From assembly GCA_009844425.1 (NCBI GenBank), contig VYBN01000013.1, positions 124,001-188,000 on the forward strand: DNA of 64,000 nucleotides, in the 5' to 3' direction. The notes under the pieces are model-generated. The model saw only the letters and a program-made list of their open reading frames with translations, had not been told where the DNA came from and ran no database searches. A program made the translations under genes and the position numbers. This DNA is from Gammaproteobacteria bacterium. Lineage in GTDB: Bacteria; Pseudomonadota; Gammaproteobacteria; Steroidobacterales; Foliamicaceae. Shown one piece after another: positions 8,459 through 52,357 of the stretch (position 1 is the first letter of the stretch; the number at the start of each line of letters is the position of its first letter).

Positions 8459-10726
8459 TTGAAGGGTTCCCGAATACCCGGTTTTTACCGCCTTACGCCG
8501 CGCGAGCGGGTGCAGACCGCGCTTGAGCACGGTTTCTTGAGCGAGGCGGACTTCAAGGACCTGTCCCGGGGCCGCGCCAGCCTGGACGCGGCGCGCGCCG
8601 ACCGGATGATCGAGAACGTGATCGGCGTGCTCGGACTGCCGGTGGGCCTGGGACTCAACTTCCTGATCAACGGCCGCGACTATGTCGCCCCCATGGCGGT
8701 GGAGGAACCTTCGGTCGTCGCCGCCCTCAGTTCCGCCGCCAAGCTGGTGCGCGAAGCGGGCGGTTTCACCGCTGAAGCCGACGACCCGGTGCTGATCGGT
8801 CAGATCCAGGTGCTCAACGTGCCCGATCCGGCGCACGCGGCCGCCGACCTGCTGTCGCGGCGCGAGGAGATCATCCGCCTGGCCAACAGCATTCATCCGC
8901 GCATGGTGGCGCGAGGCGGCGGAGTGGTCGATGTCGAAGTGCACCGGCGTCCGATGCCCGGCGGCGAAGGCGAAATGCTCGTGCTGCACCTGCTGGTCGA
9001 TACCCGCGACGCGATGGGCGCGAACCTCGTGAACAGCATGTGCGAGGGCGTGTCGGCGCTAGTCGAGAGCATGAGCGGCGGGCAGGTGTTCATGCGCATC
9101 CTCTCGAACCTCAGCGACCGCGCGCTGGCCCGGGCTGAGGTCGTGATCCCGGAGGAACTGCTCGGCGGCAAGGGGCAAAGCGGCAAGGACGTGCGCGACG
9201 GCATCGCCATGGCGGCGGAACTGGCCGCGGTCGATCCCTACCGCGCCGCGACGCACAACAAGGGGATCATGAACGGCGTCGATGCGGTGGCGCTTGCGAC
9301 GGGCAACGACTGGCGGGCCCTGGAGGCCGGCGCGCACGCCTGGGCGGCGCGTCACGGCAACTACACGGCGCTCTCGAAGTGGTGGTGCAAGGAGGATGGG
9401 GCGCTGTGCGGACGGCTGGAGATGCCGATCAAGGTGGGCACGGTCGGGGGCTCGCTGGAGGCCAACCCCGCCACCCAGTTGTTCCTGCGGATGACGCGGG
9501 TGGAATCGGCCCAGGAGCTCGCGCAGGTCATGGCGGCGGTCGGCCTCGCGCAGAACTTCTCGGCGTTGAGGGCGCTGGTAACCGAAGGCATACAGGCCGG
9601 CCACATGACCCTGCACGCACGCACCGTGGTCAAGGCCGCCGGAACGCCGCCGGAACTGTTCGACCAGGTCCTGGAGCGATTGATCGGCGAAGGCGACGTC
9701 AAGGTCTGGCGCGCCAGGGAGGTCCTGGGGGAGCTGGAAAGAAAGCGGGACATGCCCGCCCTGGACGAAGCGGCAATGGCCCGCCTGGGCGTGGCCGGCG
9801 GCAAGCTGATCCTGCTGGGCGAGCATGCCGCCGTGTATGGGCAGCCGGCGCTGGCCTGTCCCGTTCCCCTCAACGTTCGCGCCCAGATCAGCGACAGCGA
9901 GGAGGGCATCCAGTTGGCGATCCCGGGCTGGGGGCTCGAATACCGCCTGTCCCACACTCGCCGGCGCCGCCCCTGGGAACGATCGGCGCTGAAAATGCTC
10001 GAGGAGCTGGGCCTGGCCGGCAAGTCGATGCGCATTTCCGTGTTCTCCGACCTGCCCCGCGGTGTCGGCCTGGGGTCGTCCGCGGCGATGGCCGTCGCCA
10101 TCATCCATGCCCTGAACAAGCGCTTCGATCTGCACCTCAGCGTCGAGAGGATCAACGAAATCGCCTGGGCCTGCGAACAGTTTGCGCACGGCCGCGCCAG
10201 CGGCGTGGACAATGCCGTGTCCGCCTATGCAACCACCCTGCTTTACCGCAAGAACACGCCGCCGGATATCGAGCCGGTTACGGTCGGCGCCGACACCTGG
10301 TTCGTGATCGGCATCAGCAGCGAGGAAAGCCTGACGGCCGTAACGGTCGAGAACGTCAGGACGGCGCGCGAGCGAAACCCGAGCGTTTATGACCGCATTT
10401 TCGAGGAGATCGGCGAGCTCGTGGTTGAGGCGCGTCAATGCCTGGAAGCCGGGCGGCTCGAGGAACTGGGCGACCTGATGAACCTCAACCACGGCCTGCT
10501 CAACGGCCTGCAGCTCGCCACGCCGGAACTGGAGCAGTTGATCGACGCCGCGCGCATGGGCGGCGCGCTGGGGGCCAAGCTGACCGGCGGCGGCGGCGGC
10601 GGCGCCATGCTTGCGCTGTGCGCCGAGAGCTGCCATACGGTCAAGGAATCGATCGAAAAAACCGGCGCCCGGACCATCGCGCTGAAGCTGCCCGCCGGCG
10701 GAGGTGACGTGGAACTGGTCCAGTGA
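8459..10726 (+). CDS. Fusion of class II HMG-CoA reductase and mevalonate kinase
   Basis: One frame of 755 residues from TTG 8459 encodes two consecutive mevalonate-pathway enzymes. Residues 1 to about 430 match class II (Pseudomonas mevalonii-type) HMG-CoA reductase. They begin SRIPGFYRLTP and carry the catalytic Glu in VEEPS (residue 83), Lys in HNKGI (268), Asp in GNDW (284) and His in GHMTLHAR (382). These fall within about one residue of the P. mevalonii numbering I recall. Residues about 444-755 are a GHMP kinase of mevalonate kinase type. They have GKLILLGEHAAVYG, the phosphate loop LPRGVGLGSSAAMA, and GAKLTGGGGGGAML. No stop or frameshift separates them. The TTG start has no clear Shine-Dalgarno; upstream in-frame codons overlap the divergent receptor gene. 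Idi follows with a 4-base overlap, indicating a biosynthetic role. Confidence 0.9.
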   Translation: MKGSRIPGFYRLTPRERVQTALEHGFLSEADFKDLSRGRASLDAARADRMIENVIGVLGLPVGLGLNFLINGRDYVAPMAVEEPSVVAALSSAAKLVREAGGFTAEADDPVLIGQIQVLNVPDPAHAAADLLSRREEIIRLANSIHPRMVARGGGVVDVEVHRRPMPGGEGEMLVLHLLVDTRDAMGANLVNSMCEGVSALVESMSGGQVFMRILSNLSDRALARAEVVIPEELLGGKGQSGKDVRDGIAMAAELAAVDPYRAATHNKGIMNGVDAVALATGNDWRALEAGAHAWAARHGNYTALSKWWCKEDGALCGRLEMPIKVGTVGGSLEANPATQLFLRMTRVESAQELAQVMAAVGLAQNFSALRALVTEGIQAGHMTLHARTVVKAAGTPPELFDQVLERLIGEGDVKVWRAREVLGELERKRDMPALDEAAMARLGVAGGKLILLGEHAAVYGQPALACPVPLNVRAQISDSEEGIQLAIPGWGLEYRLSHTRRRRPWERSALKMLEELGLAGKSMRISVFSDLPRGVGLGSSAAMAVAIIHALNKRFDLHLSVERINEIAWACEQFAHGRASGVDNAVSAYATTLLYRKNTPPDIEPVTVGADTWFVIGISSEESLTAVTVENVRTARERNPSVYDRIFEEIGELVVEARQCLEAGRLEELGDLMNLNHGLLNGLQLATPELEQLIDAARMGGALGAKLTGGGGGGAMLALCAESCHTVKESIEKTGARTIALKLPAGGGDVELVQ

Positions 10727-11244
10727 GTGCGCCGGTCAACCTGGTGCTGGTGGACGCCGAAGACCGCGAAATCGGCGTTGCGGAGAAATTCCGATGCCAC
10801 GAGGGCGATGGCCTTCTTCACCGTGCCTTCTCCGTTTTCGTCTATGGCCCCGACGGACGGGTCCTGCTCCAACAGCGAAGCGCCGCCAAGCCGCTGTGGC
10901 CGATGTACTGGTCGAATTCCTGTTGCGGCCATCCGCTGCCGGGCGAGGAGGTTCCCGCTGCCGCCGAGCGCCGCACGCAGGAAGAATTCGGCATCGCCTG
11001 CAAGGCCCGGTTCCTCTACAAGTTCCAATACCAGGCCCGCTATTCGGCCGGCTACTCGGAAAACGAGCTATGCCACGTATTCGAAAGCGACTACGACGGA
11101 GAACTGGCTCCCGACCCCGCCGAAATCGCCGCCTGGCGCTGGATCGCGCCGGACGAACTGACGAAGGAAATCGAACGCCACCCCGAGCGCTTCACCCCCT
11201 GGATAAAGCTCGAATGGGCTGAAATCCGCCGCTATTCGGAGTGA
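10723..11244 (+). CDS. idi: Isopentenyl-diphosphate delta-isomerase, type 1
   Basis: The 173-residue Nudix-fold protein interconverts IPP and DMAPP. It shows FSVFVYGPDGRVLLQQR, the metal/catalytic NSCCGHPLPGE, the AAERRTQEEFGI Nudix-like helix, NELCHVFES and a conserved AWRWI. Cys and Glu of the type 1 active site are both present. Its GTG start overlaps the stop of the HMGR-mevalonate kinase gene (GTGA), so the two are co-translated. This places IPP made through mevalonate directly before isomerisation. Its 3' end overlaps fumC on the opposite strand by 13 bases. Confidence 0.93.
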   Translation: MSAPVNLVLVDAEDREIGVAEKFRCHEGDGLLHRAFSVFVYGPDGRVLLQQRSAAKPLWPMYWSNSCCGHPLPGEEVPAAAERRTQEEFGIACKARFLYKFQYQARYSAGYSENELCHVFESDYDGELAPDPAEIAAWRWIAPDELTKEIERHPERFTPWIKLEWAEIRRYSE

Positions 11245-12617
11245 ATGCCGCCCCGGGTCAGGGTGACCGGGTTCAGGATGGCCTTGAGCTGCTCCTCGGA
11301 AAGATCGGTCTCCTCGACCGCCACTTCCAGGATCGGACGCCCCTCCGCATAGGCCCGCTTCGCGATCAACGCGGCCTTGTCGTAGCCGATCACCGGATTC
11401 AGCGCCGTCACCAGCACCGGGTTGCTTTCCAGCAGCTCCGCCAGGCGTTCCCGGTTGACCGTCAGGCCCGCGATCGCCTTGTCGGCCAGCATCCGGCAGG
11501 CCGCCGAAAGAATCTGGATGCTCTCGAGCGCATTGCGCGCGATCATTGGAAGCATGACGTTCAACTGGAAGTTGCCGGACTGGGCGCCGACCGTTATCGC
11601 CGCATCGTTGCCGATAACCTGGGCCGCCACCTGCATGGCGGCTTCGCTGGCGACGGGATTGACCTTGCCCGGCATGATGCTGGAGCCCGGCTGCAGCGCC
11701 GGCAGCGTAATCTCGCCCAGTCCGCCCAGCGGCCCCGAATTCATCAGGCGCAGGTCGTTGGCGATCTTCATCAGCGCCACCGCCGCCGCCTTGAGCTGGC
11801 CGGACAGCTCAACCATCGTCTCCTGCCCGGACAGCGCCGCAAACCGGTTGCCGGCCGGCGTCAGATCCAGGCCGGTCTTTTCGCTGATCCAGCGGCAGGC
11901 CAGTCCCGACATCACCGGATGGGCATTGATTCCCGTCCCGACCGCCGTTCCGCCCAGCGCCAGCTTGTTCAGCCTTGAATTCAGCACCTGCCCAAGCCGT
12001 TCCCGGCAGTCGCGCAATTGCGACGCCCAGCCGCCGAACTCCTGGCTGAGCGCCAGGGGCATCGCATCCATCAGGTGCGTGCGGCCTGTCTTGACCACGC
12101 CCTCGAATTCCGCGGCGCGCTTCTCGATCGAGCCGGCGAGGTGATCCAGCGCCGGCAGCAAGCGCTCGTTTACTTCAAGGCCCGCGGAAAGATGCAGCGC
12201 CGACGGAATGACGTCATTGCTGCTCTGCCCCATGTTGACGTGATCGTTGGGATGCACCTTGATCTTTTTTGAGCTGGCCGCGTTGGCGATCACCTCGTTC
12301 ACGTTCATGTTGCTGCTGGTGCCCGATCCGGTCTGAAATACGTCCACCGGGAAGTGCTCGTCGTGGATGCTGTGGGCAACGTGATCGGCCGCCTTCATGA
12401 TGGCGTTGGCCCGGGCCGAGTCCAGCAGGCCCAGGGTGCGATTGGCCGAAGCGCAGGCCCCCTTGATCAGGCCCAGGGCGCGAATGAACGCGCGCGGCAT
12501 CCTCTTGCCGCTGATCTGGAAGTTCTCCACGGCACGCTGGGTGCTGGCTCCCCAAAGCGCGTCGGACGGGACCTTGAGCGCTCCCATGCTGTCGCTTTCG
12601 GTTCTGAATTTTGGCAC
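11232..12617 (-). CDS. fumC: Class II fumarate hydratase
   Basis: This 461-residue enzyme converts fumarate to L-malate in the TCA cycle without an iron-sulphur cluster. It opens FRTESDSMGALKVPSDALWG, has SGTSSNMNVNEVIAN and KTGRTHLMDAMPL, and carries the superfamily signature GSSIMPGKVNP. Length is typical. It is transcribed divergently from purB across about 54 bases that contain possible promoter sequence. Confidence 0.96.
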   Translation of the reverse strand: MPKFRTESDSMGALKVPSDALWGASTQRAVENFQISGKRMPRAFIRALGLIKGACASANRTLGLLDSARANAIMKAADHVAHSIHDEHFPVDVFQTGSGTSSNMNVNEVIANAASSKKIKVHPNDHVNMGQSSNDVIPSALHLSAGLEVNERLLPALDHLAGSIEKRAAEFEGVVKTGRTHLMDAMPLALSQEFGGWASQLRDCRERLGQVLNSRLNKLALGGTAVGTGINAHPVMSGLACRWISEKTGLDLTPAGNRFAALSGQETMVELSGQLKAAAVALMKIANDLRLMNSGPLGGLGEITLPALQPGSSIMPGKVNPVASEAAMQVAAQVIGNDAAITVGAQSGNFQLNVMLPMIARNALESIQILSAACRMLADKAIAGLTVNRERLAELLESNPVLVTALNPVIGYDKAALIAKRAYAEGRPILEVAVEETDLSEEQLKAILNPVTLTRGGIHSE

Positions 12618-15871: not shown

Positions 15872-17296
15872 TCAGGCGGCCTGAGACTGAACGCGGACGA
15901 GTTCGCGGCGGAAGCAGCGCAGCGTAACGGGCGCCAGCGCCAGCACGATCGAACCGTACAGCAGCGGCACGGCGGCAAAGGCAAGGGCCAGACTCTTGGC
16001 GCCGGTCGCCCCAGGCAACACCCACTCCACAAGCGCGTCCATGCCCGCCACTCCGGTTCCACCGTTGAACCAGTCCGAGAGCCAGCCCACGGTGGACGGC
16101 CCCAGCAGCAGCCCGGTAATGCTGATCGCCATGTAATAGACGGCGGTAATCTGGCCGCGGAATTGTGCCGGCGTGATCATCAGAAGCGCGGTGACGCCAG
16201 TGGAGGTGGTGGTGGCGATACCTATGAGACTTACACCCATAACCGCAAAAGCCGGAAACGTGCCTGGCATCAGGGCAATAAGAAAACCGGTGGGAGCGAA
16301 GACGAACGCGCCCGCCACGGCGATTAGCAAGGGGGCGTTATCGCGCCCTCTTCGCACCAGATAATCGGATAACGCGCCGGCCGCGAAAACCGTGGCGGGC
16401 GCGCACACCAGCGTGACGACGGCCTTAATCTGGGCAAATTCGGGCGTATCCATGCCCCAGGTCCGGGAAAACACCGCCGGCATCCAGAAATGCGTGTAGG
16501 CCACGGTCGTCATAAGGCAGAACGGCAGCACAAATGTCAGGTAGGTCTTCCAGTGAGTGAAGACATGCCGGAACATGAGCCACGGCGCGGAGGGGCCCAG
16601 CCGATACCTGAGCCCGGGCACGGAGCGCATGGAGCGGACATCATCCAGCTTGAGATCGCGGCGGGTTGGCTCGCGAACCGTCAGCATGACCAGCGCCAGC
16701 AGCAGACCGGGAAGCCCCACGATGATGAATACGGCCTGCCACGGCCTGATGGCGCCCACCAGAGGCCAATTGAGCACCTCCACCCCGCGCAAAGCCGCCA
16801 GCAGCGCGCCGATTGCGTAATAGGCGGTGGCCGTCCCCAGCGATAGCGCCATGGAGTAGACGGCGATCGCCTTGCCGCGCTTCTCCTTGGGAAAGCTGTC
16901 GGCGATCATCGACATCGTGCAGGGACTCAGGGCCGCCTCGCCGACTCCGACGCTCATGCGTAACAGGAATAACTGCAGATAGTTGCTCGCCAGCCCGCAA
17001 AAGGCAGTCGCGGCAGACCATAGCGCGATCGCGCAACTGACGATGGTCACCCGGCGCGTGCGGTCCGCCAGCCAGCCCAGCGGCAGGCCCATCGTGGCGT
17101 AGAAAATCCCGAAGGCCAGACCCAGCAGCAATCCCATCTGGCCATCGGTCAAGCCCAGGTCCGCCTTCATCGGCTCCACCAGCAAACCGATCACGGTGCG
17201 GTCGATGTAGGAAATGAAGTAGGCCAGCGTAAGCAGCACCACCATGTACCAGGATCGTTTCGGGCTCGGATAGGGTGGCTTGTTCAGGTTGTTCAT
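15872..17296 (-). CDS. MFS transporter, spinster-like
   Basis: The 474-residue membrane protein has about 12 hydrophobic segments. It carries the MFS motif A region GLPLGWLADRTRRV after TM2, and SYIDRTVIGLLVEPMKADLGLTDGQMG at the N-terminus, the layout of spinster-type carriers. The substrate is unknown. I took the ATG at 17296 (MNNLNKPPYPSP), because the frame upstream is only the antisense shadow of the reductase gene. That ATG overlaps the stop of the preceding dehydrogenase gene (ATGA), so the two are translationally coupled, suggesting the carrier moves that enzyme's substrate or product. Confidence 0.88.
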   Translation of the reverse strand: MNNLNKPPYPSPKRSWYMVVLLTLAYFISYIDRTVIGLLVEPMKADLGLTDGQMGLLLGLAFGIFYATMGLPLGWLADRTRRVTIVSCAIALWSAATAFCGLASNYLQLFLLRMSVGVGEAALSPCTMSMIADSFPKEKRGKAIAVYSMALSLGTATAYYAIGALLAALRGVEVLNWPLVGAIRPWQAVFIIVGLPGLLLALVMLTVREPTRRDLKLDDVRSMRSVPGLRYRLGPSAPWLMFRHVFTHWKTYLTFVLPFCLMTTVAYTHFWMPAVFSRTWGMDTPEFAQIKAVVTLVCAPATVFAAGALSDYLVRRGRDNAPLLIAVAGAFVFAPTGFLIALMPGTFPAFAVMGVSLIGIATTTSTGVTALLMITPAQFRGQITAVYYMAISITGLLLGPSTVGWLSDWFNGGTGVAGMDALVEWVLPGATGAKSLALAFAAVPLLYGSIVLALAPVTLRCFRRELVRVQSQAA

Positions 17297-18330
17297 CAGT
17301 GATGATTCTCCGGTTCTCCCCGCACGCTGCAGCATTGCACGCCTACGTTGCGCCCATCGTACAGCCTCGCCAGGGCGTCGGGCATGTTCTCGAAGCCTTC
17401 TACGACGTCCTGGATAGGCTTGAGCTGCCCCGCCTTTATCCACGCCGCCAATCCGTCGAAGGCGTCCTGGAAGCGGTCCTGGTAGTTGTAGACGAAGAAC
17501 CCGGTCATGCTGCCGTTCACCGCTCGCAGGTTCAGGTAATTGGGCAGCGCGAATCGCTCCTCCCTCAGGTATTCGGAAATAGACCCGCACAGAACGATGC
17601 GTGCGCCGAACGCCAGGTTGTCCAGGCAGGCGGCGAGCAAGTCGCCGCCTACGTTGTCGAAGTAGAGGTCCATTCCGTCGGGGCAAAGTTCCGCGACGCG
17701 CGCGCAGGCGTCCTCGTTCTTGTAGTCGATGGCCTGCTCGCAACCCAGCTCCCGGATAAAGCGGCACTTCTCCGGACCCCCGGCAATGCCGATGACGCGG
17801 CAGCCGTGGATCTTCAGCATCTGCACCACGATAGAACCGACCCCGCCCGCGGCGCCCGAAACGACCGCCAGGTCGCCGGACTTGGGCCGCCCGCAGTCCA
17901 GCAGCCCCCAATAGGCACTGACCCCGGTCATGCCGAGCACGCCGGCGCCCAATGAAAACGGCAGACCGTGGTCCCTGCACTTGAAGAACCGCTCGCGCGG
18001 CGTTGCGGCCGTTACCTTCCACGTCTGCCAGCCAAGCTGCCCCTGAACGATATCGCCCGCCCGGTAGTCCGGGTGCCTGGACTCCACCACTTCGCCGACG
18101 CCCCGGCCGTGGATCACGTCGCCTATGTCCAGCGGCGTCTCTCCGGAGGGGTTCAGCCCCTGCATGTACATCCGCATTACCGGGGCCAGACCCAGGTACC
18201 GGGTCTTCACCAGCATTTCGCCGGGCCCGGGCCGCGAGATCGCCCGCTCAGCCAGCTCGAAGTCGGCCGGACGCACGTTGCCTTGCGGCCGCGCCGCAAC
18301 GCGCCATTGCAGGTTCACGTCCTCTCGCAA
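17296..18330 (-). CDS. NADP-dependent medium-chain oxidoreductase (curcumin reductase / leukotriene B4 dehydrogenase type)
   Basis: This 344-residue protein belongs to the zinc-free MDR branch that reduces activated double bonds. Seen features are an N-terminal GroES-like domain, RYLGLAPVMRMYMQ, the Rossmann motif SGAAGGVGSIVVQ near residue 160, FDNVGGDLLAACL and GSMTGFFVYNY. No zinc-binding cysteines are present. It is followed by the MFS carrier with a 1-codon overlap. An enoate or conjugated ketone is the likely kind of substrate; the exact one cannot be read. Confidence 0.88.
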   Translation of the reverse strand: MREDVNLQWRVAARPQGNVRPADFELAERAISRPGPGEMLVKTRYLGLAPVMRMYMQGLNPSGETPLDIGDVIHGRGVGEVVESRHPDYRAGDIVQGQLGWQTWKVTAATPRERFFKCRDHGLPFSLGAGVLGMTGVSAYWGLLDCGRPKSGDLAVVSGAAGGVGSIVVQMLKIHGCRVIGIAGGPEKCRFIRELGCEQAIDYKNEDACARVAELCPDGMDLYFDNVGGDLLAACLDNLAFGARIVLCGSISEYLREERFALPNYLNLRAVNGSMTGFFVYNYQDRFQDAFDGLAAWIKAGQLKPIQDVVEGFENMPDALARLYDGRNVGVQCCSVRGEPENHH

Positions 18331-18375: not shown

Positions 18376-18909
18376 CTACTGCTCCTGCTCGATCATTTCA
18401 TAGACCTCAACCATGTGGCCCGTGGGAGCGCGCAGCAGCATCGTGTTGGAGCGGCCCGTGCGGGAAGGGCCGTAGTGCTTAACGATATCGGCGCCATGCT
18501 CCACGGCGCGGTCGTACACGTCGCGAATATTCTTGCCCATATGCACCAGCACTACGCCGCCGTAGGCCACCCCTGAATCGGGAAGATCAAGCGCGGGAAA
18601 ATCCGGGGTGTCCTCCACCATCAACAGGCCAATCATGGCCCCTTCCTTCGACGTGAAGATGGTGAAGTAGGTGGTGGAATCTTCGTTCCAGCCCAGCGGA
18701 TGGGCAAATCCCGTGCGCGGTTCCGGATCGCCGGCATAGTCGAAGCCCATTACGTCCCTCCAGAACGTGATGGATGGCTCAAGGTCGGACAGGCGCCCGA
18801 ATAACGCGGTGCGTATGAGGGTGGCATAGCCCGGCTCGGGTTCGTGGCTGTCCGCCTGGGCGCCGGCGACCATCAGTACGCCGGCAAGCAATACGAGAAG
18901 TTTGCGCAT
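18376..18909 (-). CDS. Exported VOC (glyoxalase/bleomycin-resistance fold) protein
   Basis: The 177-residue protein has a signal peptide (KLLVLLAGVLMVAGAQA) and then a vicinal-oxygen-chelate domain. It contains LFGRLSDLEPSITFWRDVMGFDY, a middle TYFTIFTSKEGAMIGL, and a C-terminal half with DVYDRAVEHGADI and LLRAPTGHMVEVYEM, where the last Glu is a usual metal ligand. VOC proteins are mostly cytoplasmic, so the signal peptide is uncommon. It lies 45 bases upstream of the MDR gene on the same strand and may belong to the same operon. Confidence 0.8.
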   Translation of the reverse strand: MRKLLVLLAGVLMVAGAQADSHEPEPGYATLIRTALFGRLSDLEPSITFWRDVMGFDYAGDPEPRTGFAHPLGWNEDSTTYFTIFTSKEGAMIGLLMVEDTPDFPALDLPDSGVAYGGVVLVHMGKNIRDVYDRAVEHGADIVKHYGPSRTGRSNTMLLRAPTGHMVEVYEMIEQEQ

Positions 18910-19021: not shown

Positions 19022-20104
19022 ATGATCCCGATCAGTCAGAGACACCGCGCCGGCCTTCAATTCCTGGGGTCGCTGCAGCACTATTCGTCCAGCCACATTC
19101 GCGACGTCGCGCGGGAGCAGTTCGCCGCCAGCAAGAAGGGGCAGGAACTTCTTGAGGCCGAGGTCGCGCCGGAGCCCCGCGCCCAGCTGAGGCGTGCGCG
19201 GGAAGCCCGCAAGGCGGCGCTGGAATGTCCGGCTTACCAGCACGAGAGGCTGTACCAGCGCTACGTGGCCGAAGAGAATTTCGTGCGGGCGATTCCGGCC
19301 GTCGAGGAAAAGCGTGAAGAGTGCATTGCAGTCCTGAGCCGCGAGCCCGAATACCAGGGCGGTTCGCTGGAACTTGACGACAGCGTTCCGATTCCGAAGT
19401 ACTACGAAGGCGTGGAGTGGCACCTGGAACCCGGCGGCTGGGACGGATATGACCTGGCCACCCCGATGTTCATGGCAGGCGTGGCCCCGTATGTATTTTC
19501 CCGCGGCGGCTATGCGGCCGTGGAAGTGGACCAGGACATCCGCCGTCAGCGCGTGGACGTGGTGAGCCTGCTGCCGAAAGACCACTACGACCGCATCTAC
19601 GAACCCGGCTGCGGGGGCCTGGGAGCGCTGGCGGCCTGCAGCCAGGTGTATCCCGACGCTGAACTGACCGGCAGCGACATCTCGACGGCGCTGCTCAAGG
19701 GCGGTCACAAGGCCGCCCGGAACATGGGCATACCGATCCACCTGAAGCAGCGCGACGCCCGCGACACGGGCGAGCCGGACGAGTCCTACGACGCCGTGCT
19801 GATGTACGCGCTGCTGCACGAAATGCCGGTGAAGGTGAGCATCGACACCATCCGCGAGGCGTACCGGATCCTCAAGCCGGGCGGCGACATCGTGATCAAC
19901 GACCCGCCGCCGTTCTGCCGGGTGGACGCGTTTCAGGCCGCGATCCTGGACTGGGAAAGCGAGTATCGCGGGGAGCCCTTCTTCAGTGCGGCCTGCTCGA
20001 TGGACTGGGCTACGGTGCTCGAAGAAGTCGGCTTCAAGGTGCTCGAGGCGCGCGCGCTGGATTCAAGAGGCTACCCCTGGGTCAACGTCGCGACCAAGCC
20101 TTGA
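19022..20104 (+). CDS. SAM-dependent methyltransferase, copy 1 of a methyltransferase/helical-partner module
   Basis: The 360-residue protein has an N-terminal domain of about 170 residues that I do not recognise, containing PIPKYYEGVEWHLEPGGWDG. A class I SAM-binding Rossmann domain follows: IYEPGCGGLGALAA (motif I), ELTGSDIS (motif II), VLMYALLHEMP, AYRILKPGGDIVINDP and a final SRGYPWVNVATKP strand. The same architecture recurs at 49492 and 54024, and each copy sits beside a roughly 100-residue partner gene. Here the partner starts 3 bases after the stop. Substrate unknown; the LHEMP and LKPGG motifs resemble small-molecule methyltransferases. Confidence 0.85.
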   Translation: MIPISQRHRAGLQFLGSLQHYSSSHIRDVAREQFAASKKGQELLEAEVAPEPRAQLRRAREARKAALECPAYQHERLYQRYVAEENFVRAIPAVEEKREECIAVLSREPEYQGGSLELDDSVPIPKYYEGVEWHLEPGGWDGYDLATPMFMAGVAPYVFSRGGYAAVEVDQDIRRQRVDVVSLLPKDHYDRIYEPGCGGLGALAACSQVYPDAELTGSDISTALLKGGHKAARNMGIPIHLKQRDARDTGEPDESYDAVLMYALLHEMPVKVSIDTIREAYRILKPGGDIVINDPPPFCRVDAFQAAILDWESEYRGEPFFSAACSMDWATVLEEVGFKVLEARALDSRGYPWVNVATKP

Positions 20105-20107
20105 GCG

Positions 20108-20404
20108 GTGACTAAACCGCCGACACGCCCGCTTACCGGCGACGAGAGCCTGGATCGCCTGCTGCGCATGAACACGGAGCTCCTGTCGGAGCTCTGGATC
20201 CTGCGCGACCGGGTGATGGTCCTTGAGCAAATCCTTGAGGAGAAGGGACTGCTGGATGCCAGGGCGGTGGACGACTACGCGCCTTCACCGGAGTTCGGCG
20301 AAGTACTGCAGGACGAGCGCGACCGGCTGGTGCGGCGCGTGGCCGGCGCGCCCTGGACCGAGGAATTCACCTGGCAGTCACTCGTCGAGCGCGGCGGGCG
20401 GTAG
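20108..20404 (+). CDS. Helical partner protein, copy 1
   Basis: This 98-residue acidic, mostly helical protein starts with GTG directly behind the methyltransferase. Its core SELWILRDRVMVLEQILEEK followed by GL is shared with the proteins at 50550 and 55156. The three agree on E-L-[WY]-[IV]-x-x-D-R-x-x-x-L-E-x-[ILV]-L-x-x-[KH]-G-[LV]. A variable tail with an acidic stretch follows. I do not recognise the family; a coiled-coil or helical-hairpin subunit for the methyltransferase is the simplest reading. The last 27 bases overlap the 3' end of the efflux pump gene on the other strand. Confidence 0.75.
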   Translation: MTKPPTRPLTGDESLDRLLRMNTELLSELWILRDRVMVLEQILEEKGLLDARAVDDYAPSPEFGEVLQDERDRLVRRVAGAPWTEEFTWQSLVERGGR

Positions 20405-23400
20405 TTTTCGTCCGACCCAGGCGAAATACACCGCCGGAATCACCAGCAGCGTAAGCACCGTCGTCAAGACCATCCCGCCCAGCATGGGCAGCGCGATGCG
20501 GCGCATCACGTCCGCACCCAGACCGCTGGTCAGAAAGATCGGCGAAAGCCCCGCCAGCACCGTGATCACGGTCATCAGGATCGGCCGCAGGCGCAACGCG
20601 GAGCCGACGCTGATCGAAAGCGCCAGTTCCTCCAGGTTTGCGGGCCTGTCCTGGCGCACGTGGTTGTCGATGTACATCACCATGACGACTGCGGTCTCGG
20701 CCGCCACTCCTCCAAGCGCGATAAAGCCGACGGCCACCGCCACGGACAGGTTGTAGCCGGCCATCCATACGGCCCACAGGCCGCCGACCAGGGCGAAGGG
20801 CAGCGATAGCATGATCATGGCAGTGCGGTCCAGACGGCCGAAGTGCAGCATGAGCAGCAGGAAGATCAGCCCGATGGCCGAGGGGATGGCGATATTGAGC
20901 CGTTCGCCAGCCGCCTGGATTTGCTCGTACTGCCCGGACCACTCGATGGCATAGCCGGGAGGCAAGGACACGCTGCGGTCCACGAGGCTACGGGCCTCGG
21001 ACACGTAGCCGCCCAGATCGCGCCCCTCGATGTCCACGAACACCCAGCCGGTAAGGCGCGCGTTCTCCGAGCGGATCATCGGAGGGCCTTCGGTGAAGGT
21101 CACGCGGGCCAGTTCGCCCAGCGGTATGTGTGCGCCGGTGGGCGTCGGGACCAGGATGTTCTCGAGATCCGCGCTGGTCTCGCGAAACGGCCGGTCGTAG
21201 CGCAGCATGATGTCGTAACGCTCGCGCCCTTCGACGCTCTCGGCCAGCTTCATGCCCCCCAGCGCGGTCTGGATGACCGACTGGAATACGCCCATGTCGA
21301 TATTGCGCCGCGCGAGCTCGGAGCGGTCCGGCAGGATCTCAAGGTAGTTGCCCCCCAGGACGCGGTCGGCAAGCGCGGTGCGAGTCCCCCGCACCGTTCC
21401 GACGACCGATTCCACTTCGCGCGACAGGCGCTCAAGTTCGCCCAGGTCGTCTCCGGTGATCTTCACGCCCACCGGCGTGCGCACGCCTGTCGAGACCATG
21501 TCCATGCGGATATTGATCGGGTAGCCCCAGGAGTTGACCAGACCCGGCATCTGCAGGCGGCCGTTCAGGTCCTCGACAAGCCGCTCGGGGGTCATGCCCT
21601 CGCGCCATTCCGACTGAGGCTTGAGGCGGATCCAGGACTCGATCATCGTCAGCGGCGCCGGGTCGGTCGCGGTGTCCGCGCGGCCGGCCTTGCCGAACAC
21701 GCTTTCGACCTCGGGCGCCTGGGCGATCACCCGGTTGGTCTGGCCGAGCACTTCGCGGATCTTCGTTGACGACACGCCCGGAAGCGTGGTGGGCATGTAG
21801 AGCAGCTCGCCTTCGTACAGGGGCGGCATGAACTCGGATCCGAGCCGGGACAGGGGCACGGCGGAACTGGCGATCAGAACGGCCGCGAGCGCCGCCGTGA
21901 TCCACTTGAAGCGCAGGGCCGCACGCAGGCAGGAGGCGTACAGCCGGGCGGCGAATTCACTGACCGGATTCCGCACTCTCATCCGCCCGCGCAACAGCAG
22001 CAGGATCAGGACCGGCACCAGTGTCACCGAAAGCAAGGCGGCGAACACCATCGCGTAGGTCTTGGTGAAGGCCAGCGGCGCGAACAACCGATAGCTCTCC
22101 CCGGTCAGCGCAAAGACCGGGAGAAACGAAACGGTGATGATGAGCAGCGAAAAGAACAGCCCGGGGCCCACCTCCCGCGCCGCGCGGATGACGGCGCGCC
22201 GCCGGGCGCCGGGCGGCGCCCCGGGATCGACTTCCGAGATCCTGCGGTTGGCGTTCTCCACCATGACGATGGCCGCGTCGACCATGGTCCCGATCGCGAT
22301 CGCGATGCCTCCCAGCGACATGATGTTGGCCGTGACGCCCTGGGCGGACATGATCACGAAAGCGCCCAGCACGCCCAGAGGCAGCGTGATCAGCGCCACG
22401 CATGCCGAGCGGATGTGCAGCAGGAAGATGACGATGACCAGCGCGACGGCAATGCCCTCCTCGATCAGCTTGCGCATGAGGTAGGACACCGCCCCCTCGA
22501 TCAGCGGTGAACGGTCATAGGTGGTGACGATGCGGACGCCCTCGGGCAGACCGCGCTCGAGTTCCGCGAGCTTGGCCTTGACCCGCTCGATGACCTTCAA
22601 GGCGTTCTCGCCGTCGCGCATGACCACGATGCCCGCGACCGTCTCGCCGGCCCCGTCCAGCTCCACGATGCCCCGGCGCAGGGCGGGTCCTTCCACGATG
22701 CGGGAAACGTCCGCCAATGTGACCGGCGTGCCGTCCTCCGCGTACACCACGACCTGTTCCAGGTCCAGGCGATCTTCCACGTAGCCGGAGGAACGGATCA
22801 CGAACTCGCTCTCGCCCTGCTCCAGCACCCGGCCGCCGACCTCGCTGGATGCCGCCCGTACGGCTTCCGAGATCCGCCGAATCGACACGTCGTAGGCGCG
22901 CAGCTTGTTGGGATCGATCAGCACCTGGTATTCACGCACGAATCCGCCCACGGAAGCGACTTCCGCCACACCGTCAACACCCGCCAGCTCGAAACGCAGG
23001 AACCAGTCCTGCAGCGAACGCAACTGCGCCAAATCGGTGCGGCCCGTCTCGTCCACGAGCGCGTACTGATAAACCCAGCCCACGCCGGTGGCGTCCGGCC
23101 CGATCTGCGGCCTGGCGCCGGGCGGCAGTTCGGTGCTCAGGCGCGACAACGCCTCGACGACCCGTGAACGCCCCCAGTACAGGTCCACATCGTCTTCGAA
23201 GATCACGTAGACGAAGCTGGTGCCGAACATGGACGAGCCCCGCACGTCCTTGGTCCTGGGCAAGCCCAGCATGTTCGCCGACAGCGGGTAGGTCACCAGG
23301 TCCTCCACGATCTGCGGCGACTGCCCCGGGAACTCCGTGCGGATGATCACCTGGGTGTCGGTGAGGTCCGGTATGGCGTCCAGCGGCGTCCTCTCCAGGG

Positions 23401-23539
23401 AAAGCCAGCCCGCCAGCGCAAGTCCGGCGGCGAGCGTCAGGACGATGACCGGATTGTCCGCCGACCAGGCGATCAGGCGCGCGATCGCCGAGTCCGACGG
23501 GTCACGGCCGGCCAGTTCGTTGACGGGAGGATCAACCAT
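20378..23539 (-). CDS. cusA: Heavy-metal RND efflux pump, CusA type (Cu/Ag)
   Basis: This 1053-residue inner-membrane proton-driven pump has the RND layout: TM1 near residue 30, a periplasmic loop, TM2-6, a second loop, and TM8-12. It carries the HME signature GTMVDAAIVMVENANRR in TM4. The three methionines that bind copper or silver in E. coli CusA are in place: LLYMPTTLPG, DPAPLTMIES and IRMDMVSTG. This points to Cu(I)/Ag(I) rather than zinc or cobalt. The gene is last in a CusC-CusB-CusA order, 3 bases after cusB. Confidence 0.93.
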   Translation of the reverse strand: MVDPPVNELAGRDPSDSAIARLIAWSADNPVIVLTLAAGLALAGWLSLERTPLDAIPDLTDTQVIIRTEFPGQSPQIVEDLVTYPLSANMLGLPRTKDVRGSSMFGTSFVYVIFEDDVDLYWGRSRVVEALSRLSTELPPGARPQIGPDATGVGWVYQYALVDETGRTDLAQLRSLQDWFLRFELAGVDGVAEVASVGGFVREYQVLIDPNKLRAYDVSIRRISEAVRAASSEVGGRVLEQGESEFVIRSSGYVEDRLDLEQVVVYAEDGTPVTLADVSRIVEGPALRRGIVELDGAGETVAGIVVMRDGENALKVIERVKAKLAELERGLPEGVRIVTTYDRSPLIEGAVSYLMRKLIEEGIAVALVIVIFLLHIRSACVALITLPLGVLGAFVIMSAQGVTANIMSLGGIAIAIGTMVDAAIVMVENANRRISEVDPGAPPGARRRAVIRAAREVGPGLFFSLLIITVSFLPVFALTGESYRLFAPLAFTKTYAMVFAALLSVTLVPVLILLLLRGRMRVRNPVSEFAARLYASCLRAALRFKWITAALAAVLIASSAVPLSRLGSEFMPPLYEGELLYMPTTLPGVSSTKIREVLGQTNRVIAQAPEVESVFGKAGRADTATDPAPLTMIESWIRLKPQSEWREGMTPERLVEDLNGRLQMPGLVNSWGYPINIRMDMVSTGVRTPVGVKITGDDLGELERLSREVESVVGTVRGTRTALADRVLGGNYLEILPDRSELARRNIDMGVFQSVIQTALGGMKLAESVEGRERYDIMLRYDRPFRETSADLENILVPTPTGAHIPLGELARVTFTEGPPMIRSENARLTGWVFVDIEGRDLGGYVSEARSLVDRSVSLPPGYAIEWSGQYEQIQAAGERLNIAIPSAIGLIFLLLMLHFGRLDRTAMIMLSLPFALVGGLWAVWMAGYNLSVAVAVGFIALGGVAAETAVVMVMYIDNHVRQDRPANLEELALSISVGSALRLRPILMTVITVLAGLSPIFLTSGLGADVMRRIALPMLGGMVLTTVLTLLVIPAVYFAWVGRKLPPAALDE

Positions 23540-23542
23540 GCG

Positions 23543-24868
23543 CTAGTGACGGTGCCCGCCGCCGGGGCCGTTCGCCTCCGGCTCGAGCTTCGCCAGGCCC
23601 TCGCGCAGGTTCGCCTCGGAATCGAGCATGAATTGCCCGCTAACGACTACCCGCTCACCGGCGCCCAGGCCCGCGAGGATTTCGGTGCGCCCACCCCCGG
23701 CAGCACCGGTTTCCACGGTCCGGCCGGCAAAGCGGCCGCCGCCCAGCGCGACGATCACGTGTTCCCCCCTGCTGTCCCGAAGCAGAGCCTCGGTGGGCAC
23801 GGAGAGGCGCGCTTCCCCGGCGCCCAGGCTGAATTGAATGTCCGCGTAGGCTCCGGGGCGCAGCGCTCCGGAAACATTGTCCACCTCGATGCGAACGTCG
23901 GCGGTTCGCGTCTTCGGGTCGATCGTGGGATAGATGTAGTCCACGGTGCCCTGCTCCGCCGCTTCCGGCGCGCTGGGAAAATCAAGCGAGACGGTCTGGC
24001 CGGCCGTTACCAGGGCCAGGTCGGCTTCCGGAATGGAGGCGATGACCCAGACCCTGGCGTACGACTGCAGCCGCATGATCGGAGTTCCCGGCTTTACGTA
24101 GTCGCCTTCCCGCACCGCAAGCCCAGCCACCGTACCGGCGGCTTCGGCATATACGGGCAGGCGCTCGATCACCTCGCGGTTCTCGACCAATTGATCGATT
24201 GCCGCGGCCTGCATGCCGTCGGAAATCAGCCGCTGGCGGCCGGAGTCGATGCGCGTTCCACGGCCTGCTTCAAGCGCCGCGAGAAAGTCCTTCTGAGCGG
24301 CGATCAGGGCGGGGCTGTAGACACGGTAGAGCAGCGCGCCCCGCGCGACCTCGTCACCCTCGGCGCGCACCGCGAGATCTTCGATCCAGCCTTCCAGCCG
24401 GGCGACCGAAACCGACTCCAGCCGCTCGTTGCTCACGACATTGCCGAAGGCCCGCACCGACTGATCGAAGTACGCGGTCTCCACCGGGGCCGTGCGCACG
24501 CCCATGGTCTGGATCATCTCCGGGGACACCTGCACCATCGCTTCGGGAGCGGGTACGGATAGCGGCCGGATCGAGACCGCAACCACGTCCATGCCGCAGA
24601 TAGGACAGACGTGCTCTGCATCGGTGGAAACGACATGCGGATGCATTGGGCAGGCGAACAGCTGCTCCGTTTCGGCCGGCGGCGGAAACACACTCAGCTC
24701 CGGCGTCGCATCGGGACCGTTTCCTCCGCAGCCGGCAATCGCGAATACGGTCAAAAGCAAAACGGTGAAATACCGACCAGGTTGCCGGGAGAGAGGGCGT
24801 CCCGCCCTCCGGGAAGGCGAGACACCTTCCCTCCCGGGAGTCTCGCGCAAACGTAAGTAACTACTCAT
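23543..24868 (-). CDS. cusB: RND periplasmic adaptor, CusB type, with an N-terminal metal-binding YHS-like motif
   Basis: The 441-residue lipoprotein adaptor links the pump to the outer-membrane channel. It shows a lipobox (TVFAIAGC), then a heavy-metal-binding domain CPMHPHVVSTDAEHVCPICGMDV. Barrel-sandwich and hairpin regions follow (QSVRAFGNVVSNERL, AEGDEVARGALLYRVYSP), then GLGAGERVVVSGQFMLDSE and a His-rich tail GGGHRH. The ATG at 24868 overlaps the outer-membrane gene stop (ATGA). About 30 residues before the signal are encoded by a dispersed hairpin repeat (24785-24837), which appears to have inserted in frame near the start. A later start would need a non-ATG codon. Confidence 0.9.
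   Translation of the reverse strand: MSSYLRLRETPGREGVSPSRRAGRPLSRQPGRYFTVLLLTVFAIAGCGGNGPDATPELSVFPPPAETEQLFACPMHPHVVSTDAEHVCPICGMDVVAVSIRPLSVPAPEAMVQVSPEMIQTMGVRTAPVETAYFDQSVRAFGNVVSNERLESVSVARLEGWIEDLAVRAEGDEVARGALLYRVYSPALIAAQKDFLAALEAGRGTRIDSGRQRLISDGMQAAAIDQLVENREVIERLPVYAEAAGTVAGLAVREGDYVKPGTPIMRLQSYARVWVIASIPEADLALVTAGQTVSLDFPSAPEAAEQGTVDYIYPTIDPKTRTADVRIEVDNVSGALRPGAYADIQFSLGAGEARLSVPTEALLRDSRGEHVIVALGGGRFAGRTVETGAAGGGRTEILAGLGAGERVVVSGQFMLDSEANLREGLAKLEPEANGPGGGHRH
24785..24837. repeat. REP-like double-hairpin repeat, copy 1, inside the cusB reading frame
   Basis: Two adjacent short stems are visible: GAGGGCG-TCC-CGCCCTC (24793-24809) and GGAAGG....CCTTCC (24812-24830), enclosed by CCGGGA/TCCCGG. 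The same layout with near-identical first stem occurs at 48093-48131, and a related form at 50859-50896. This copy is translated as part of the CusB N-terminus. Confidence 0.7.
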
Positions 24869-26097
24869 GATGTCACCAACAGGGAATTGAGTCGGGCCAC
24901 GGCGCCGTCCCGCCGTTCCCGCTCGCGGGCGATCCGTGCCACCAGGATCAGTTCGGCCAGTTCGCCGTCGATGATCGGCGAATAGTCCCCTATTCCCGAT
25001 TCGTACTTCGTGCGCTGCGCCGCCACCTGTTCGCGAATGGCCGAGATCTTCGCGTTCAGCGCATCCGTTGCGGCCTCGGCAGCCCGGCGTGTCGCATCCA
25101 GGGCCGAATAACGCGCCGCTGCGCCCCTCGCGGAGGCCGTTCGGCGGCTTACGGCGCTTTCCCGCTGCGCCCTGGCCGCGCGCAACGCCGGGGTCTGCGA
25201 ACGGTTGGCCCAAAGCGGAACGCTGAAGGTCATCGCCGCCGACACCCAGTCATCGCCGGGGAAGCCCACGTCCGTCCCGCCGGAGTCGCGTTGCTGCCAG
25301 GTAAGGGACAGGCCCCACTCCGGCTTCCAGGCGGCCCGTGCCTTCTCCACGCCGGCCTCGGCCACGGCCACCTCCGCGGCGGCCACCCGCACGGCGTGAA
25401 AGGCCTCCGGATCCCCCGACCAGGCCATGGGTTCAACCGGCGGCAGGGAGACTGCGGCGGCCCCGCCTACCAGGTCCGCAAGACGCGCGTCAACATCGGC
25501 TTCCTCCGCCTGAAGGTCGGCCAGCGCACGAGCGATTTCCGCCCGCTGCAGGTCGATCTCGGCCAGCCGGACCAGCACCGGGCGGCCCGCTGCGATCTCG
25601 CCTTCCACGATCTGCTCCAGTTCGGTGTACAGCGAATCCTGGCGTTGCAGCAGCGCCAGCTCTTCGGCGATGCGTCGTCTGACGAAAAGAGCAACGAGCA
25701 ACTCCGAGCGCATGCGCGCGAACTGCATGGCCTCCAGGGCCTCGTTTCGGGCGGCGCTTAGCCGCGCCTGCGCCGAGCGGGCTGCCCGCGCGCCGCGATT
25801 AGGAATCTGCTGGCTTACGCCCAGCGCCTTGTTGGTCGGCAGGAACGTGCGAAACGAGGGATCGGCCAGCGGAAAGTTGTTGATTCCCAACGACACCACG
25901 GGATCGGGCCATGCCGTCGCGGCAACCGCGTCCGCACGCCATGCCTCGGACTCCAGGCGCAGGGCCTCAAGCGCCGGATGTTCCTTCAGGCGGGCCTCAA
26001 GCTCGGGAAGACTCTGCCCGAGAAGGGGCGGGGCGCCCAGCGCAATGCCGAGCGAACACGCAAGCAACAAAAACAGGTTTTGACTTTTTTCAGCCAT
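24865..26097 (-). CDS. Outer-membrane efflux channel, TolC/CusC family
   Basis: The 410-residue protein has a signal peptide (LFLLLACSLGIALGAPPLLG) and two repeats of a long helical coiled coil separated by short strands, as in TolC-type channels. Examples are ELEARLKEHPALEALRLESEAWRAD and ALLRLRRQDSLYTELEQIVEGE-like stretches. It is shorter than E. coli CusC and lacks a clear lipobox, closer to CzcC-like members. It is the first of the three pump genes and overlaps cusB by 4 bases. Together they would form the tripartite exporter. Confidence 0.88.
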   Translation of the reverse strand: MAEKSQNLFLLLACSLGIALGAPPLLGQSLPELEARLKEHPALEALRLESEAWRADAVAATAWPDPVVSLGINNFPLADPSFRTFLPTNKALGVSQQIPNRGARAARSAQARLSAARNEALEAMQFARMRSELLVALFVRRRIAEELALLQRQDSLYTELEQIVEGEIAAGRPVLVRLAEIDLQRAEIARALADLQAEEADVDARLADLVGGAAAVSLPPVEPMAWSGDPEAFHAVRVAAAEVAVAEAGVEKARAAWKPEWGLSLTWQQRDSGGTDVGFPGDDWVSAAMTFSVPLWANRSQTPALRAARAQRESAVSRRTASARGAAARYSALDATRRAAEAATDALNAKISAIREQVAAQRTKYESGIGDYSPIIDGELAELILVARIARERERRDGAVARLNSLLVTS

Positions 26098-50915: not shown

Positions 50916-52112
50916 CTAGAGCGGTTCGGTGGCGGGGTCGTAGTGGGAAAGGCCGAGGGTCTCTTCGGTGACTATGGGCCTGCGGGCCAATTCGTCGGGG
51001 TCCTGCTGCATCAGGCGCTCGCCACCGTGAAGGGACTCGCGATGGATGACGGTCACGCGCTCCCTGCGGGCCTTCTCGTAGCGACGCAACGCCTCTTCGG
51101 CCCCTTCGAACTCGATCAGTGAGCGGCAGAGGATCACCGCGTCCTCGATCGCCATCGCAGCGCCCTGACCCAACCAGGGCAGCATCGGGTGCGCGGCGTC
51201 GCCCAGCACGGCAGCCCGGCCCTTGACCCAGCGAGGCAAGGGGCGGCGCGAAAAAAGCCCCCACTTGTGGCAGCGCCTTCCCGGGAATGCTCTCAGCACG
51301 ACGCGCGCGTCGTCGTGGAAGTCGGAAAACACGTCCCGCACCGAATCGATGTCGCCGGTTTGCGACCAGCCTTCGGCGGACCAGCCCTCATCGACCTGCG
51401 AAAACGCCACGAAATTCTGCAATGCTCCATGGCGCACGGGGTAGCGAACGAACATGCGCCCCGGCGCCACGAACACCATGGAACCGGGACGTGATTGTTC
51501 GGCGCCCAATTCGTCCCGGGTGACCAGGCCCCTCCAGGCCACGAAGCCCGAGAACTCCGGCGCCGGCTCGGAAAAGACCTCGCGGCGCACGGTGGACTTG
51601 AGCCCGTCGGCGCCGACCAGCAATTCGGCGCCCGCCTGCGACCCGTCGGCAAAGCCCAGCACGTAAGCGCTCGCCGAACCATCCGAAACGACCGTCAGTT
51701 CCTTGTCCAGCACCAGCGCATCCGGCTGCAGCGCGGCCAGTCTTTCGCGCAGAAGATCATGCAGATCGGCGCGATGGGCCTGCAGGTACGGCGCGCCCAG
51801 TTGCTCGCGCGTGTTGTGGCGTCTGAAGTTCACCAGCACCTTGCCATTGGCGTAGTGACGCGTGACCTGGGTCGGCGGCTCGTCGGCCAGCGCCTCCAGT
51901 CGTTCGCCCACGCCCAGGTAGCGAAGTCCCTTGACGGCGTTCGGCGAAAGCGAAACGCCAGCGCCGATCTCCCTGAGCTCGGGCGCCTGCTCATAGACGC
52001 GCAGCCGCCGGCCGGCCCGGGCCAGGCCCAGCGCCAGCGCGAGGCCGCCGATTCCGGCGCCGACAATCGCAATCCGGTCGGCCACGGGCTGCGAGTGCCG
52101 TGACAAGCTCAT
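50916..52112 (-). CDS. FAD-dependent aromatic monooxygenase (salicylate / 3-hydroxybenzoate hydroxylase type)
   Basis: The 398-residue class A flavoprotein has IAIVGAGIGGLALALGLARAG, the DG motif LLVGADGLKSTVRREVF, and the second FAD motif AAVLGDAAHPMLPWLGQGAAMAIEDA. GAGVSLSPNAVKGLRYLG and the tail ARRPIVTEETLGLSHYDP are typical of salicylate-hydroxylase-like enzymes. It would hydroxylate a phenolic acid with NAD(P)H and oxygen. Its ATG and first codons lie inside the left arm of the hairpin at 52094-52357. Confidence 0.9.
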   Translation of the reverse strand: MSLSRHSQPVADRIAIVGAGIGGLALALGLARAGRRLRVYEQAPELREIGAGVSLSPNAVKGLRYLGVGERLEALADEPPTQVTRHYANGKVLVNFRRHNTREQLGAPYLQAHRADLHDLLRERLAALQPDALVLDKELTVVSDGSASAYVLGFADGSQAGAELLVGADGLKSTVRREVFSEPAPEFSGFVAWRGLVTRDELGAEQSRPGSMVFVAPGRMFVRYPVRHGALQNFVAFSQVDEGWSAEGWSQTGDIDSVRDVFSDFHDDARVVLRAFPGRRCHKWGLFSRRPLPRWVKGRAAVLGDAAHPMLPWLGQGAAMAIEDAVILCRSLIEFEGAEEALRRYEKARRERVTVIHRESLHGGERLMQQDPDELARRPIVTEETLGLSHYDPATEPL

Positions 52113-52357
52113 ATTGTCGCATCAGAGCGGGCATGGCGTGTCCCTGCAAGGCGCAGCCCGCAGGGAATACTGCCAGTATTTCCAAGGGCTGCAACACCGC
52201 AGGGGCGCGCCATGCCCGCTCCCGAAGGGCGCGTCTCCCCTGGCCCGTGGCCGCGTTGCGCCCCTAGGCAATGGGAGACACCATTCCCGGCGGGACGCGC
52301 CTTGCCACAAACCAGGGGAGACGCGCTGATGCGACAATATGAGCTTGTCACGGCACT
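52094..52357. repeat. 264-bp nested hairpin element, copy B (32-bp perfect terminal inverted repeats)
   Basis: Terminal arms 52094-52125 and 52326-52357 are exact inverted copies (left arm starts AGTGCCGTGACAAGCTC). Inside are two further perfect 13-bp pairs, 52126-52138 with 52208-52220 and 52231-52243 with 52312-52324, and smaller stems. The left arm covers the start codon of the monooxygenase; the right arm ends within the stop codon of the FAD oxidase. As a result the monooxygenase start region (MSLSRH) exists twice, in opposite directions. No open frame of note lies inside, so it is not a coding mobile element. Confidence 0.85.

Follow-up and report, generated by a model that had tools for sequence, protein, structure and literature searches.

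When the same two genes stand side by side at three separate sites of a single 64,000-nucleotide stretch of a gammaproteobacterial genome (the window, by which the whole of that stretch is meant), the question arises of what the pair does and how closely its smaller member is tied to the larger one. At each site the larger gene codes for a methyltransferase (MT) and the smaller one for a helical protein, here called the partner:

19022-20104, + strand: MT A, 360 aa, with a helical N-terminal domain, an HxxPGG linker and a class I Rossmann domain
20108-20404, + strand: partner a, helical, 98 aa, GTG start, in the frame of MT A after one TGA and one codon
49492-50553, + strand: MT B, 353 aa
50550-50840, + strand: partner b, helical, 96 aa, overlapping the stop of MT B
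54024-55088, - strand: MT C, 354 aa
55156-55473, - strand: partner c, helical, 105 aa, upstream of MT C

The module so defined is real, old and repeatedly duplicated, and combines an MT of known fold carrying an unfamiliar N-terminal domain with a helical partner that has no name. Our preferred reading, to which we would give about an even chance, is that each pair forms a two-component SAM-dependent small-molecule methyltransferase set among genes for catabolism and uptake. What we show is homology, pairing, copy numbers, co-divergence, the modelled MT fold and the presence of the SAM motifs; methylation, the acceptor, the complex, the catalytic residues and the roles of the partner and the N-terminal domain are inferred.

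With respect to homology, profiles were built from 40 partner and 54 MT sequences, all from outside the window genome and its near kin, and searched against the 1055 frames of the window. Partners a to c were the sole significant matches of the partner profile (E = 8.7e-20, 6.5e-19 and 2.9e-17, respectively; next E = 3.7), and up to an E value of 1 the MT profile matched MTs A to C alone (2e-101 to 5e-70). All three sites at which the sequence-only reading had placed a two-domain SAM MT of 353-360 residues beside a helical protein of 96-105 residues are thereby recovered, homology of the small proteins is strongly supported, with an E value of 2.9e-17 or better for each, and chance resemblance among them is ruled out by this window-wide search with outside sequences. 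The motif that they had been said to share, E-L-[WY]-[IV]-x-x-D-R-x-x-x-L-E-x-[ILV]-L-x-x-[KH]-G-[LV], is found as written in partners a, b and c.

The description as a three-copy family, correct for the window, does not hold for the source genome (3.03 Mb in 50 contigs, 94 percent complete), in which there are 14 MTs and 14 partners. A single-sequence search and a profile search return the same 14 MTs, all at 382 bits or more with the next protein at 41, and the partners were found by a profile search at E up to 1. Thirteen of the 14 partners adjoin an MT; the fourteenth pair, on contig C35, is divergent and its members are about 5.6 kb apart, the gap including a TonB receptor, and this split arrangement is also present in genome G015. 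As the MTs of the source genome have only 22-30 percent identity to copy A and are interspersed with sequences of other organisms across the family tree, the paralogues must be old. Furthermore, MT and partner distances are correlated, both for the genome's own 13 adjacent pairs (r = 0.48, with 8 of 10000 pairing shuffles as high) and for 40 dereplicated pairs (r = 0.65, the highest of 5000 shuffles reaching 0.35). This co-divergence shows that the pairs have been duplicated and moved as units, the shuffles keeping shared ancestry. The suggestion that the pairing is conserved is thus upheld by adjacency in the source genome, by co-divergence and by shared presence in the genome draws considered below.

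A scan of genome contigs, from which the best 80 of 418 relatives were retained as loci, places the family in gammaproteobacteria, alphaproteobacteria, Nostoc and Chloroflexi/Dehalococcoidia; these loci and the genome counts together show the partner family in the first three groups and, in a few copies, in Chloroflexi. Among named strains, Novosphingobium jiangmenense and Methylonatrum kenyense have a pair in their genomes. When genomes were drawn from the class, a partner was found in 5 of 232 and an MT in the same 5, and when they were drawn from the phylum, a partner in 4 of 397 and an MT in the same 4, with the best candidates scored per genome (up to 20 partners and 8 MTs in the class draw, up to 12 and 4 in the phylum draw), so that weak members could be missed and the counts obtained there for the source genome (true numbers 14 and 14) are low. 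MT and partner numbers are equal in six genomes of the draws other than the source genome, and 20 of the 22 partners in the seven distinct genomes adjoin an MT, the exceptions being two split pairs. Partner:MT ratios were also taken from 13 genomes that had supplied chosen loci. They are 17:17, 14:14, 9:9, 16:16 and 13:12 in five gammaproteobacteria sharing orthologous loci with the source genome, 1:1 in Methylonatrum, 17:21, 25:46, 25:47 and 5:58 in four other proteobacteria, 1:3 in Nostoc, and 4:14 and 2:24 in two Chloroflexi. The partner therefore relies on the presence of the MT more strongly than the reverse. Such paralogue numbers, 14 here and as many as 58 in other genomes of 3-4 Mb, recall the diversification of other enzyme families described for SAR202 (PMC6946804, PMC5395668), in the main texts of which the word 'methyltransferase' does not occur.

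The frequency of MTs without a partner was assessed at the level of loci. Among the 105 MTs in the best 80 of 418 loci, 70 have a partner on the same strand within 400 bases (62 downstream and 8 upstream), 8 have one farther off and 27 have none in the stretch, some of them lying at contig ends. In an enlarged set of loci, which partly overlap so that some genes are counted twice and near-identical kin are included, a partner was found for 126 of 177 MTs, none nearby for 41, and 10 were undecidable; here a partner had to lie within 500 bases, its absence required 700 bases of sequence on either side, the split pairs L105 and L109 were assigned a partner by hand, and 2 of 179 MT rows were left out as too short or as the repeat of a locus. 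From these 41 MTs it follows that the MT can do without a linked partner, and MTs of this kind are common in some alphaproteobacteria and Chloroflexi. On a quick tree of 87 dereplicated MTs, partner presence changes 13 times, at least 9 of these changes being forced by well-supported branches, whereas shuffled partner labels require 21.8 changes on average and none of 500 shuffles was as low as 13. A comparison of MTs with and without a partner, in which some genes are again counted twice and near-identical kin are included, did not show the distinguishing positions to be gathered in any one domain.

Some loci depart from the simple pair. At L019:4983-7405 a single partner gene is located between two MTs, one B-like and one C-like by tree grouping, so that one partner may serve two MTs. 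Two partner genes in tandem follow one MT, with more MTs close by, in two alphaproteobacterial genomes (L143:6259-8118 and L144:6383-8245). Rows of MTs with no partner in the stretch were seen in an alphaproteobacterial genome (four MTs, L145:2717-7536, in a stretch of 12 kb) and in a Dehalococcoidia genome (three MTs, L146:2831-6228, in one of 9 kb).

Does the partner bind the MT? Since partner a lies in the frame of MT A, separated from it by one TGA and one codon, the two were folded as one read-through chain with an artificial linker, using 14 similarly read rows in addition to unpaired rows. The partner part folds into a long helix (375-408), a short one (413-417) and a further one (423-442), with pLDDT values of 78-91 in blocks across 371-440 and of 52-59 beyond. 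The joined chain has a pTM of 0.77 compared with 0.92 for MT A alone, which we estimate to be about what an unplaced partner would give, and therefore no MT-partner interface is predicted. A natural fusion of the two proteins was not found in the loci of the best 80 of 418 relatives. In the proposal of an obligate small subunit, the word obligate is right in one direction only: no partner was found without an MT in the draws of 232 and 397 genomes, and the numbers of the two agree, but 41 of the 177 MTs have no partner nearby. The joined-chain model, for its part, does not place the partner with confidence. That the small protein is a separate regulator or folding factor, which travels with the MT and is not its subunit, seems unlikely to us. 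It would be in line with the want of a confident interface, with the low partner-to-MT ratios of some genomes (5:58 and 25:47) and with the position of the L019 partner between two MTs. Against it speak the co-divergence and, in the gammaproteobacteria examined, numbers that are nearly 1:1 and genes that lie close together. In the preferred reading, that of a two-component enzyme, the partner, with its long and second helix, would bind the large subunit and stabilise or regulate it.

Searches for a known identity of the partner gave no family above cut-off in Pfam or NCBIfam. Several weak resemblances were considered and rejected. For the nitrile hydratase alpha subunit, about 23-26 residues around R-x-x-x-L-E align at E = 0.07-0.17 with the rest unmatched, and TIGR01323, the corresponding NCBIfam model, scores 12.5 bits for partner a and 12.7 for partner c against a cut-off of 249.85, partner b not being listed. 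DUF2018 is matched by 2 of 54 partners (best E = 8.6e-5; partner b 22.5 bits against a cut-off of 25) and PspB by 6 of 54 (best E = 0.0017), resemblances that we read as coiled-coil-like. PHROGs, searched with partners a to c of the window, yielded a single match at E = 0.0093. In PADLOC, which covers anti-phage defence, the partners have no match, and the MT matches to mad2 are confined to the Rossmann domain. An origin of the partner as a duplicated MT segment was also rejected (hhalign probability 0.5 percent). Nor was a description of the pair, or a family enzyme with a known substrate, found in the literature searched, Pfam, NCBIfam, PHROGs, PADLOC or the PDB. The partner family, which neither Pfam nor NCBIfam lists, could be what has been lacking for the active expression of these enzymes.

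Conservation within the partner bears on a further alternative, namely that the small protein is the substrate, a residue of which is methylated by the MT, whereupon the partner would act as a carrier, regulator or signal. Arg35 and Glu40 are invariant in 13 partners of the source genome, and both, together with Glu28, are nearly invariant in 54 partners, which along with co-occurrence and co-divergence would fit such a role. However, no Cys, His or Lys is nearly invariant across the 54 partners, Arg35 and Glu40 could be merely structural in a helix, and many MTs lack a linked partner, so that we regard this alternative as very unlikely.

To our knowledge, it is uncommon for a small-molecule methyltransferase to have a second subunit of its own. 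In Trm112-type activators, too, a class I MT is accompanied by a small protein. Trm112 is an obligate small MT activator that binds zinc through cysteines and serves as a hub for several MTs, whereas partners a, b and c are helical and free of Cys, and the source genome has as many partners as MTs. PDB entry 6f5z, which we take to be a Trm112-type MT complex, is among the first 50 fold matches listed for MT A.

As for the large protein, several Pfam methyltransferase models pass their gathering scores in MTs A to C, always within the second half, with Methyltransf_25 scoring 55.6, 75.0 and 77.9 bits in the three MTs against a gathering score of 27; the first 170 residues have no family match in Pfam. 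Methyltransf_2 (PF00891) stays below its gathering score of 22.3 with 16.7 bits for A and 11.8 for C, and is not listed for B. An AlphaFold2 model of MT A, based on an alignment of 70 MTs (pLDDT 92.4, pTM 0.92), comprises five helices (6-106), a linker with HxxPGG and then the Rossmann domain. All of the first 50 Foldseek matches in the PDB contain a class I MT domain, with whole-query TM values of at most 0.49 among those listed, and the glycine motif, the acidic residue after strand 2 and the Rossmann fold are evident from the model, the fold matches and the MT alignment. Invariant in the 70 MTs are P125, H134, P211, D257, H266, E267, E279, R282, G287 and G288 (copy A numbering), and in the HxxPGG linker P137 and G138 are nearly so. 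With class I small-molecule MTs (Methyltransf_25/11; RebM, 3bus; AtmM, 6uv6) the window MTs have the Rossmann domain and the SAM motifs in common, and by analogy presumably a probable His base as well; they differ by an all-helical N-terminal domain of about 106 residues without a Pfam match and by the dedicated helical partner. The best NCBIfam match of MTs A to C is CpaM, a corrinoid protein-associated methyltransferase (NF043040), over the Rossmann domain only, and membership was rejected with scores of 44.1, 59.8 and 60.0 bits against a cut-off of 180.

In the two-component reading, SAM is predicted to be held in the Rossmann domain of the large subunit, which is of the standard class I type. 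H266-E267 of copy A, an invariant His-Glu that follows the fourth strand and that we take to resemble in position the catalytic His of O-methyltransferases, is probably the general base; H134 of the linker, likewise invariant, is perhaps near the active site, and the N-terminal helical domain may lie over this site and determine which acceptor is used. Duplicated together with their partners, the 14 paralogues, which we take to be ancient, would probably each O-methylate a different small organic molecule of phenolic, enolic or carboxylic nature, taken up or oxidised by the products of neighbouring genes. The presence of a partner for every copy suggests a two-part enzyme whose multiplication serves the handling of a variety of compounds.

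Some class I folds catalyse reactions other than methyl transfer, and the enzyme might accordingly bind SAM or SAH without transferring a methyl group, performing a cyclisation, elimination or hydroxylation instead. The invariance of His134, His266 and Glu267, the very many paralogues in genomes of 3-4 Mb, the occurrence of SpnF (4pne) among the first 50 fold matches listed and the presence in some subfamilies of twin-arginine-like leaders, which are odd for an enzyme needing cytoplasmic SAM, could be cited in its favour. We nevertheless consider it unlikely: the SAM motifs are present, a His base is possible in an ordinary MT too, and the other chemistry has no direct support.

The leaders just mentioned occur on two MTs of the source genome (L006:7423-8667 and L009:4821-5993, both + strand), in which they begin MINRRSVMG and MNRRTILG, respectively, and continue with a hydrophobic stretch and an AxA-like site; the SAM motifs are present in both. 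An MT with such a leader was found in 11 of 12 stretches fetched from five related genomes (L131-L141), while L142 holds another, leaderless pair. The first type is found in six genomes and the second in four, all of them close kin. Overall, a leader was seen in 13 of 179 MT frames, a figure that gives no rate as 11 of the 13 come from stretches chosen for the leader. The same crude leader pattern is also found in 4 of 145 control proteins, and it is the conservation, in genomes that are close kin, rather than the pattern itself that counts. The partner gene is located upstream of the leader-bearing MTs and appears leaderless by eye where its start is seen. A bolder scheme, which we deem quite unlikely, would have these MTs fold in the cytoplasm with SAM or SAH and the leaderless partner and be exported as a complex via the twin-arginine pathway, the partner hitch-hiking, and would make the broader family a large class of two-component SAM enzymes, up to 58 per genome, that process dissolved organic compounds. 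If true, this would imply an extracytoplasmic SAM-binding enzyme, either methylating in a single turnover or using SAM/SAH as a fixed cofactor.

The proposed acceptors can be approached via the gene neighbourhoods, which in the window include the following:

17296-18330, - strand: zinc-type alcohol dehydrogenase / enoyl reductase like protein, beside pair A also in three near relatives
18376-18909, - strand: VOC (glyoxalase-fold) protein with an apparent signal peptide by eye, beside pair A also in three near relatives
50916-52112, - strand: protein of the FAD-dependent aromatic hydroxylase type (FAD_binding_3)
52356-53939, - strand: FAD-linked oxidase (FAD_binding_4)
55520-56449, - strand: PhyH-type dioxygenase
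56613-58094, + strand: aldehyde dehydrogenase

Also found around pairs B and C are a TRAP-type binding protein, CMD and aldo-keto reductase proteins, an MFS carrier (by eye) and a hydrolase. On the other side of copy A, a CusCBA-type RND efflux set (20378-26097, families by eye) is convergent with partner a and overlaps its end by 27 bases. The order MFS carrier, alcohol dehydrogenase, VOC protein, MT, partner and RND efflux set is kept, with some insertions, in three other genomes; since MT A is 95-97 percent identical in these near relatives, the order says little about selection.

Across loci, 132 neighbours of dereplicated pairs were compared with 132 control proteins, the former being a random 140 of 256 under 1000 residues from which 8 repeats or partners had been removed (one of those kept is an MT of the same family), and the latter the first 132 of a random 140 of 145 under 1000 residues. 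The neighbours come from 37 loci in many genomes and the controls from 20 stretches in ten module-carrying genomes, so that the genomes are only partly shared. Abhydrolase_1 was matched by 9 neighbours and 2 controls; Aldedh, FAD_binding_3 and FAD_binding_4 (4 neighbours each) and Glyoxalase (3) are all outside the first 25 families of the controls. TonB receptors (6 versus 4), NAD_binding_8 (4 versus 4) and Oxidored_FMN (2 versus 2) are similar in both sets. Genes were called by a simple composition score. In total 143 Pfam families were matched among neighbours and 210 among controls, which implies a larger share of unrecognised or false genes in the neighbour set. In this small and imperfectly matched sample the neighbour families lean towards the catabolism of small organic compounds, and on these counts it is plausible that the substrate of each MT is handled by the adjacent oxidases and carriers. 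Several pairs, on the other hand, are surrounded by unrelated genes.

Alternatively, the pairs might serve biosynthesis instead of catabolism, as tailoring MTs of natural-product or membrane-lipid pathways. Their closest solved relatives by profile include RebM (3bus), AtmM (6uv6) and phosphoethanolamine MTs, the pair is present in Nostoc, and a pair of the source genome (L008) is located near squalene/phytoene-synthase-like genes as judged by eye. Yet the natural-product and lipid MT matches span only the common Rossmann domain, and the families met most often among the neighbours are hydrolases, TonB receptors, aldehyde dehydrogenases and FAD oxidases; in our view a biosynthetic role is unlikely. 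Near several pairs, finally, hydantoinase-like and M24 (creatinase-like) genes were noted by eye (L107:7496-11438, L110:9772-13001, L105:1262-2470 and 10577-11779), hinting at the breakdown of nitrogen compounds.
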